Of a stretch of 64,000 nt of DNA, positions 2,073 to 3,926 are shown one piece after another. Made by a program: the position numbers and the translations under genes. Within the stretch, counting starts at the first letter, position 1. Every line of letters begins with the position of its first letter. This stretch comes from Deltaproteobacteria bacterium RIFCSPHIGHO2_02_FULL_40_28. GTDB taxonomy: Bacteria > UBA10199 > 2-12-FULL-40-28. Where the stretch lies: NCBI GenBank assembly GCA_001798135.1, contig MGRJ01000027.1, positions 1-64,000 of the forward strand, given 5' to 3'. The notes below the pieces were generated by a model, which did no database searches, was not told the origin of the DNA, and worked only from the letters and a program-made list of their open reading frames with translations.

Positions 2073-2222
2073 GCATCCGGGGGTTGGTGGCTTTAAGCAA
2101 AAGCGTCTCGCAGCTGATTTGTCCTTTCGAAAAAATAAAACAAATCGGCGAGAGCGAGCGGATTCAAACCTCGATGGTTTGAAAACCGCGTCTTTTGCGA
2201 AAGACATCCAACCCCCGGATGC
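2073..2222. other. 150-bp three-way-junction-like structured element
   Basis: The outer arms 2073-2087 and 2208-2222 are perfectly complementary over 15 bp. The stem continues imperfectly with CTTT 2091-2094/AAAG 2200-2203, GCAAAAG 2097-2103/CTTTTGC 2192-2198 and CG 2104-2105/CG 2189-2190. Inside are two further hairpins. One is 2106-2111/2148-2153 plus GATTTGT 2116-2122/ACAAATC 2140-2146. The other has arms TTCAAACC 2163-2170 and GGTTTGAA 2176-2183 with a 5-nt loop, flanked by GCGG 2158-2161/CCGC 2186-2189 (the CG of 2189 can pair in either stem). It ends 26 nt upstream of the acyl-CoA dehydrogenase ATG. It could be a 5'-leader RNA of that gene or a palindromic mobile element. Confidence 0.7.
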
Positions 2223-2318: not shown

Positions 2319-3926
2319 ATGCCAAGCTTAAAAGAATTAAATCAAAAGTTTATCGAACGAAAAATCAAAACCCAAAAAATGGGGGGTGATATCGAGGTAG
2401 CCAAACAAAAAGCCCAAAAAAAACTAACCGTTCGTGAACGCATTCAAATTCTTTTCGATCCGCAAACCTTTGTAGAGCAAGGCATTCTAGCCGAACATAA
2501 TTCAAACGATCCCGATATGGCCGGTAAATCAACCCCTGCAGATGGCGTGGTTAGTGGGGTGGGACAAATTTTTGGGCGAAGCGTGGCCGTTATTGCCTAC
2601 GATTTTACCGTCATAGCCGGCACCATTGGTGAAGTAAACGAGCGCAAAGCCAAACGCATGCGTGCATGGGCCGCAACGATGCGCATTCCTTTGGTGTGGC
2701 TGCTTGATTCTGCGGGAGCGCGTATTCAAGAAATTGCTTCCTCGCGCTTTGCCATGACAGGCGAGCTTTTCTACGATCAAGTGGCTCTTTCGGGTGTTGT
2801 GCCACAGGTTGCTGCCATGATGGGCCCCTGTGCTGCAGGCACAGCCTACATTGCAGGCCTGGCAGATTTTGTTCCTATGGTGAAGGGTACATCTTCCATG
2901 GCGCTAGCTGGCCCGCCTCTTGTGAAAGCAGCCATTGGTGAAGATATTTCAGCAGAAAATTTGGGTGGTTCGCGCGTGCATTGCGATATCAGCGGGGTAG
3001 GGGATTTGGAAGTTAACGATGATAAAGCCTGTTTAGAGGTGGTGCGCAAGTATCTTTCGTTTTTTCCCTCTCATAGTGGTGAAAAACCACCACGGGCAAC
3101 AGTTAAAAAAACAAGTGAGGATGTTTCGTCGCGTTTGGCAAAAGCACTTTCGGGTCAAAACCCCAATGATGAAACTTTGGATGATTCTATTTTAGAAATT
3201 TTGCCTGATAATCCGCGTAAGCACTACGATATGCGATCCATTCTTACCAAAGTGGTTGATGGAGGAGATTTATTGGAATTAAAACCCAACTTTGGAAAAG
3301 GTTTAATTACGGCTTTAGCTCGTATAGGCGGGAATGCCTTGGGAATAGTGGCCAGCCAGCCTTCTTATATGGGTGGGGTGATTAACATCGACGAATCTGA
3401 TAAGGCCGCACGTTTTATTAATTTGTGTGATGCTTTTAATATTCCCCTCGTATTTTTTCAGGATGTTCCCGGATTTATGGTGGGATCCAAGGTAGAACAC
3501 GCGGGCATTATTCGTCATGGAGCTAAAATGCTTTATGCAGTAAGCCGTGCTTCGGTTCCTAAAATCACGGTTGTGATTCGCAAAGCCTATGGAGCGGGTT
3601 ACTATGTGATGTGTGGGCGAGCCTTTGGTGCCGATAAAATTGTAGCCTGGCCCAGTGCCGAAATTAGTTTAATGGGTGCCGAAGGAGCCGTGAATATTAT
3701 TTTTAGAAAAGACATTGCAAAAGCAGCAGATCCTGAAAAACGCAGGCAAGAATTGGTAGCCGAGTACGGACAAAAAATTTCACTCGATGTAGCGGCGCAA
3801 GGGGCCTACATTGATGATGTGATTGATCCCCGAGATACCCGTAAAATTATTCTCGAAACCCTTCATTTAACTTCTCAAAAACAAATTCCTCTTCCTCAAA
3901 GGAAGCATGGCGTTATGCCGGTTTAA
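2319..3926 (+). CDS. pccB: acyl-CoA carboxylase carboxyltransferase (beta) subunit, propionyl-CoA carboxylase type
   Basis: This 535-residue protein has both carboxyltransferase halves. The N-terminal half contains KLTVRERIQILFD (about residues 46-58) and DSAGARIQE; the C-terminal half contains VFFQDVPGFMVG and the KAYGAGYYVMCGR loop. Such subunits transfer CO2 from carboxybiotin to an acyl-CoA. Length and the linker LPDNPRKHYDMR favour propionyl-CoA carboxylase, although methylcrotonyl- or geranyl-CoA carboxylase cannot be excluded by reading. The biotin carboxylase partner is not in the window. Together with the EMC genes downstream, a role in converting propionyl-CoA to methylmalonyl-CoA is the simplest reading. 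The stop overlaps the convergent hepT stop by 4 bp. Confidence 0.88.
   Translation: MPSLKELNQKFIERKIKTQKMGGDIEVAKQKAQKKLTVRERIQILFDPQTFVEQGILAEHNSNDPDMAGKSTPADGVVSGVGQIFGRSVAVIAYDFTVIAGTIGEVNERKAKRMRAWAATMRIPLVWLLDSAGARIQEIASSRFAMTGELFYDQVALSGVVPQVAAMMGPCAAGTAYIAGLADFVPMVKGTSSMALAGPPLVKAAIGEDISAENLGGSRVHCDISGVGDLEVNDDKACLEVVRKYLSFFPSHSGEKPPRATVKKTSEDVSSRLAKALSGQNPNDETLDDSILEILPDNPRKHYDMRSILTKVVDGGDLLELKPNFGKGLITALARIGGNALGIVASQPSYMGGVINIDESDKAARFINLCDAFNIPLVFFQDVPGFMVGSKVEHAGIIRHGAKMLYAVSRASVPKITVVIRKAYGAGYYVMCGRAFGADKIVAWPSAEISLMGAEGAVNIIFRKDIAKAADPEKRRQELVAEYGQKISLDVAAQGAYIDDVIDPRDTRKIILETLHLTSQKQIPLPQRKHGVMPV

Follow-up and report, generated by a model that had tools for sequence, protein, structure and literature searches.

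The element at positions 2073-2222 of the window (the whole stretch of DNA that was analysed, 64,000 nt) belongs to a dispersed repeat family, and in our judgement it is probably a non-autonomous DNA hairpin whose arms are completed by fold-back synthesis on the target strand. That it is a dispersed mobile repeat can by itself be said with much more assurance than that its arms are made by fold-back.

Perfect 15-bp outer arms, an imperfect inner continuation and two internal hairpins, arranged in the order of a three-way junction, were described in the initial annotation, and all of these features were confirmed. The outer arms, GCATCCGGGGGTTGG and CCAACCCCCGGATGC, pair perfectly over 15 bp; among inverted repeats spaced by up to 260 nt, they are the only ones in the 64-kb window to be perfect over more than 12 bp. 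The minimum free energy of the element is -76.2 kcal/mol on the plus strand (z -8.8) and -75.2 kcal/mol on the minus strand (z -9.3), against means near -40 for 200 shuffled sequences, none of which folded as well. The core consists of the two hairpins, closed by a short stem near AAAAG / CTTTT. The parts of the copy are as follows.

2073-2222, plus strand (the orientation of the core model): whole copy, arms and core; fold z-scores -8.8 and -9.3, core match at C27:2099-2196 (plus)
2073-2087, plus strand: 5' (left) outer arm, site-specific; perfect 15-bp complement of 2208-2222, present in no other copy
2088-2098, plus strand: inner 5' end, imperfectly paired, TGGCTTTAAGC (family consensus approximately TCTTGAAGC); core edge in the 11-copy alignment
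2099-2196, plus strand: conserved core, 98 nt; covariance model matches and core alignment
2104-2156, plus strand: hairpin 1 (inner stem 2113-2122 / 2140-2149); minimum free energy fold and covariation, helices 1 and 2
2158-2189, plus strand: hairpin 2, previously likened to a tRNA T-arm; minimum free energy fold and covariation, helices 3 and 4
2197-2207, plus strand: inner 3' end, GCGAAAGACAT; core edge in the 11-copy alignment
2208-2222, plus strand: 3' (right) outer arm, site-specific; perfect complement of 2073-2087

The element lies upstream of a minus-strand acyl-CoA dehydrogenase gene (844-2046), and the 26 nt previously counted between it and the ATG of that gene is correct. On the other side, a biotin-dependent-type carboxyltransferase gene (2319-3926, plus strand) starts 96 nt past the element. 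A weak promoter-like match on the minus strand (2269-2298) would direct transcription through the element towards the dehydrogenase. Within the core, a YCYCG motif precedes hairpin 1 (2106-2110, the TCTCG region) and a CGRRA motif is found in the hairpin 1 loop (2123-2139). The two look complementary in many copies, for example TCCCG/CGGGA in G042 and CCCGC/GCGGG in G009, and a pseudoknot or alternative pairing is possible.

A BLAST search with the element found 11 places in the 2.16-Mb host genome (G000; G-, C- and L-numbers denote genomes, contigs and loci), and a covariance model of the 98-nt core recovered the same 11 copies and none further. The earlier statement that the window holds no second copy was correct, the other ten being elsewhere in the same genome. 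With the model enlarged by relatives, the core was detected in 12 of 46 genomes of the class at 1-57 copies each: 57 in both G016 and G035, 21 in G020, 15 in G025, 14 in G019, 13 in G009, 11 in G000, 10 in G042, five in G002, two in G022 and one each in G003 and G004. The named relatives are metagenome-assembled genomes (MAGs) labelled Deltaproteobacteria, including RIFCSPHIGHO2_01_FULL_43_49, together with "Bdellovibrio sp." FI88_57_8, a lineage that we take to be of the kind GTDB calls UBA10199. Outside the class, the core was found in one of approximately 339 genomes (G223, two matches, L212 and L213); the flanks of one of these copies recur at several other places in G223, an indication that a more diverged core sits within a larger repeat there.

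The copies adjoin unrelated genes in varied orientations. In G009, a congener of G020, the element is missing from three sites that G020 has occupied, and for two sites of G035 the genes are tightly joined in other genera; the copies at these sites are therefore insertions. Multiple dispersed copies and element-free orthologous sites, the general marks of a mobile element, are thus both present, and one option raised in the initial annotation, an undescribed palindromic transposable element, gains support from the 11 dispersed copies, the many copies in relatives and the element-free sites there. A lack of covarying stems or of further genomic copies had been named beforehand as grounds for refutation; both were found, which fits a mobile element.

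Several features of individual copies were also observed. Cores in G016 and G035 are often paired in opposite orientation approximately 200 bp apart (e.g., L103, L112, L121, L133, L140), as if composite or nested. Several MAG contigs of G035 end inside or beside a copy (L126, L130, L134, L137), so copy numbers in draft genomes are probably underestimated. In G000, one copy (L016, positions 1979-2452, contig C6) interrupts the region for the N-terminus (signal peptide) in a cytochrome c-like gene, where an open reading frame continues in frame through the entire element. The linker region of mutL carries a copy at the same place and in the same orientation relative to the gene in the congeners G020 (L075, C92) and G009 (L093, C19), where the outer arm ends are common to both copies and the inner arms differ yet stay paired.

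Inverted arms of 24-35 nt flank every copy in G000, and each site has its own arm sequence. Pairing is perfect over 25-32 bp in eight of the 11 copies, and the remaining three pair at 19 of 20, 21 of 23 and 23 of 24 positions. Cores are on average 81% identical, whereas the arms are unrelated between loci. Core identity reached 0.8 or more in 37 copy pairs, and in only three of these were the arms more alike than the 95% level for shuffled arms, with approximately two expected by chance. The arms are mostly AT-rich, and inner arm positions on the 5' side are weakly A/purine-rich.

The origin of the arms could be followed at the C29 copy (L012), which has a paralogous site without the element in the same genome (L151, C23:55.7 kb). 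In the orientation of the element, this paralog reads CACAGCTGTGGATAAGTTTAATAAGTAAAAACAATGGTTTA, and the C29 site minus its core and 3' arm reads CACAGATGTGGATAAGTGAGTAGAAGAAAAAAACAATGGTTTA. With the left arm kept and the right arm taken as new, the reconstructed site matches the paralog for 80 nt, through the junction (score 75), whereas for the alternatives, right arm kept (45) and no arm kept (43), the alignment stops at the junction. The paralogous target runs through the 5' arm directly into the right flank, which shows that at C29 the sequence of the 5' arm corresponds to old target DNA and that of the 3' arm to a new inverted copy of it. C29 thus has both the exact inverted copy of adjacent DNA and the one-arm ancestor that characterize template-switch or fold-back events. 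The duplicated target region (approximately 80 bp), present at the two separate loci L151 and L012, has TTATCCACA-like boxes similar to DnaA boxes.

Arm origin is shown directly at this one locus, the other ten G000 copies being without a usable empty allele. A weak paralog of the C23a site at C9 gave best scores of 33 and 34 for opposite readings, and at C6 (cytochrome c signal peptide), C20 (end of a PAP2 gene) and C23b the frame is readable under several reconstructions. At C23b the 3' arm contains a possible ribosome site, which, if original, would speak against the 5'-arm rule there. At three G035 sites compared across genera the element is absent elsewhere, in spacers too diverged to count the original arms, and a nested copy in G035 (L135) says nothing on arm origin. 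By analogy with C29, where the 5' arm is ancestral, the arm at 2073-2087 of the window is predicted to be original target sequence, and that at 2208-2222 a new inverted copy of it. The predicted empty allele would read ...GCATCCGGGGGTTGG followed directly by TTGCATGATCC, with neither core nor 3' arm.

In the fold-back reading, a target strand would acquire the element at its 3' end, by joining or by copying and in many cases behind a stretch rich in A or purines. The element would come either as single-stranded hairpin DNA or through a template switch by the replication machinery at A-rich microhomology. The closing stem of the element (approximately CTTGAAGCAAAAG / CTTTTGCGAAAG) would then snap back, and a DNA polymerase would extend the 3' end on the target strand for some 15-30 nt, writing the inverted arm, before the strand is reconnected with the far side of the target. 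Later on, fold-back correction of this kind could keep both the arms and the core stems complementary. Template switching is known to create and maintain perfect stems (PMC8794818), and fold-back inverted duplications at breaks in yeast are mostly of 5-34 bp (PMC11724301).

Some observations speak against fold-back synthesis: G-T mispairs outnumber A-C mispairs in the arms, in counts that include many related copies; arms are common to several copies, hence inherited, in G016, G020 and parts of G025, G035 and G042; and at two G020 sites both arms seem to have come in as one. An alternative is an element resembling a miniature inverted-repeat transposable element (MITE), which would carry both arms with it, the arms diverging very fast and staying paired by hairpin-templated repair. 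Sub-families with shared arms in G016, G020, G025 and G035 favor this alternative, as do two G025 copies (L203 and L204) with 97% identical cores, whose 27-bp arms differ at five compensated sites and are nevertheless paired at 27 of 27 positions in both. This G025 pair also counts in favor of the fold-back reading. At two of the G020 sites (L071 and L077), G009 lacks the element and apparently both arms as well, so that both arms seem to have arrived together there, perhaps with the ends TAAGGACCCTCTGAAAAA; identity of approximately 70% leaves the exact junction loose. The G020 sub-family, with these conserved ends and empty sites, may itself be a MITE. As an account of the family as a whole we consider the MITE-like alternative rather unlikely: the unrelated arms of G000, set beside cores that average 81% identity, would need an arm rate far above that of the core loops, and the C29 paralog contradicts it at that site.

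Two further observations concern the flanks and arms. In G042, L049 and L099 have in common approximately 119 nt of left flank plus the left arm (88%) and differ on the right, a pattern that could come from transport of the left flank or from rebuilding of the right side. The gatB-mtnA spacer of G025 (L161, C59:5800-6600) holds a repeat of another family, TGTCATCCTGAAC...CAGAATGACA, whose flanking inverted arms (TAGAGCATATTTCACAAATGG / ...ATGAGATATGCTCTA) are imperfect and appear to be peculiar to the site, so that site-specific arms may extend to other hairpin repeats.

A known enzyme acting in trans could instead move the hairpin and write its arm, either a Y1/RAYT transposase or a reverse transcriptase working by target-primed synthesis with snap-back. 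A link to RAYTs is known for the hairpin repeats called REPINs (PMC3116915), and G000 has one Y1 gene. Against this, Y1 genes occur in 34 of the 46 class genomes irrespective of the element, none was found in G035 despite its 57 copies, and the G000 contig with the Y1 gene has no detected copy. The RVT_1 reverse transcriptase was not found in G000, G016, G025 or G009, although a reverse transcriptase may have been gained and then lost, or missed in MAG gaps. With Y1 and RVT_1 as the families looked for, no dedicated enzyme for the hairpin was identified, and we regard the involvement of a known trans-acting enzyme as improbable.

The core stems show strong covariation. Two-sided changes occur in 27 of the 29 core pairs, amounting to 212 such cells in 37 distinct copies; none of 500 shuffles reached 212, and sliding the partner abolished the signal. 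Selection on an RNA fold should favor G-U over A-C mispairs. In the core stems of 111 unique copies, we counted 2848 Watson-Crick, 60 G-T and 86 A-C cells. This absence of a G-T excess over A-C suggests that the core stays paired at the level of DNA, whether a DNA hairpin is selected for or the hairpin itself serves as template for correction. The outer arms differ from the core in having more G-T (119) than A-C (68) cells, in counts that include many related copies.

These data also bear on the idea that the element is a structured RNA, a 5' leader or small RNA that spread with its genes and tolerates any sequence in its outer stem. Its strong fold and strong covariation would suit such an RNA, as would the weak minus-strand promoter-like match at 2269-2298, reading towards the dehydrogenase. 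We nevertheless consider an RNA decidedly improbable: adjacent genes are unrelated and orientations varied, the core stems have no G-U preference over A-C, stability is equal on both strands, and a stepwise origin, in 11 copies, of unrelated arms with as many as 32 perfect pairs is not feasible unless something copies them. Given the unrelated neighbors, the varied orientations and the lack of a G-U preference, the earlier option of a structured 5' leader of the dehydrogenase is not supported either. No known RNA family was found at the element by Rfam at gathering or relaxed thresholds, or by ARAGORN. The previously reported resemblance of hairpin 2 to a T-arm (GGTTTGAATCC) is not kept in other copies, where compensated changes rewrite that stem, and the idea of a tRNA-derived element fails with it, ARAGORN and Rfam finding no tRNA.

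Insertion of a mobile core into the loops of pre-existing palindromes (terminators or other repeats) is hardly credible: some known elements prefer hairpins, and the G042 copy L039 lies directly after a terminator-like hairpin, but the window has no other perfect stem longer than 12 bp, the 25-32-bp arms of G000 are mostly AT-rich and a palindrome of this sort is lacking in the C29 paralog, so that such targets were rejected on the window scan and C29. A fold-back artefact of library preparation or assembly was also rejected; it would neither rejoin the proper right flank nor bring the same core to 11 sites.

Among known systems, the element resembles REPs and REPINs in being short, non-coding, hairpin-forming, mainly intergenic and non-autonomous, with two hairpins per unit (PMC3116915, PMC3733652). 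REPs are palindromes of 20-40 bp that bear a GTAG or CGTC tag, the CGTC type having an 8-9 bp stem and a 4-5 nt loop (PMC3733652), and REPINs are inverted REP pairs near RAYT genes, for which a "clover" fold has been discussed (PMC3116915, PMC3733652). The present element differs in its core of approximately 98 nt, its two unlike hairpins, the 17-nt loop of hairpin 1 and its site-specific outer stem, and Y1_Tnp is not associated with it over the 46 genomes. It is like a MITE in being a non-autonomous palindromic insertion, but the terminal inverted repeats that MITEs share are lacking in G000, where arms are unrelated between the 11 copies. By eye, no direct target duplication is evident in the outer flanks of the G000 copies, although one of 1-2 nt could escape notice. 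Rickettsia palindromic elements (RPEs) are likewise small hairpin-forming mobile DNA, sometimes inserted in genes in frame (compare L016 and the mutL copies); the accounts of them that were consulted describe no site-specific, target-derived arms. Template-switch mutations and fold-back inversions also give perfect inverted repeats from the neighboring strand, with stems rewritten in one event and of similar lengths, but those events are sporadic (PMC8794818, PMC11724301), whereas in the present case they go with every member of a dispersed family of repeats. Mitochondrial repetitive hairpin elements are dispersed hairpins without target duplications and with an unknown transfer mechanism; their stems are conserved and their loops vary (PMC2800124), whereas here the outer stem is site-specific. 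In its behavior the element is akin to REPs, MITEs and RPEs as non-autonomous palindromic elements, yet it lacks the REP/REPIN features tested and, in G000, the shared terminal repeats of MITEs. The open-access literature searched contained no insertion signature in the form of an inverted, target-derived arm.

The strong covariation described here carries a warning, in that DNA-level copying can yield such a signal in dispersed repeats without RNA function. The core model is a ready search tool for this lineage. Most bacterial insertion elements known to us leave a direct target duplication or none. We tentatively propose that parasitic DNA hairpins may spread without a transposase of their own, serving as template in replication or repair, with an inverted rather than direct duplication of the target flank as their signature. 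If the fold-back reading is true, it would explain the origin of long perfect stems with unrelated sequences, and a hairpin that leaves an inverted copy of its neighbor would suggest spread by fold-back DNA synthesis, possibly transposase-free.
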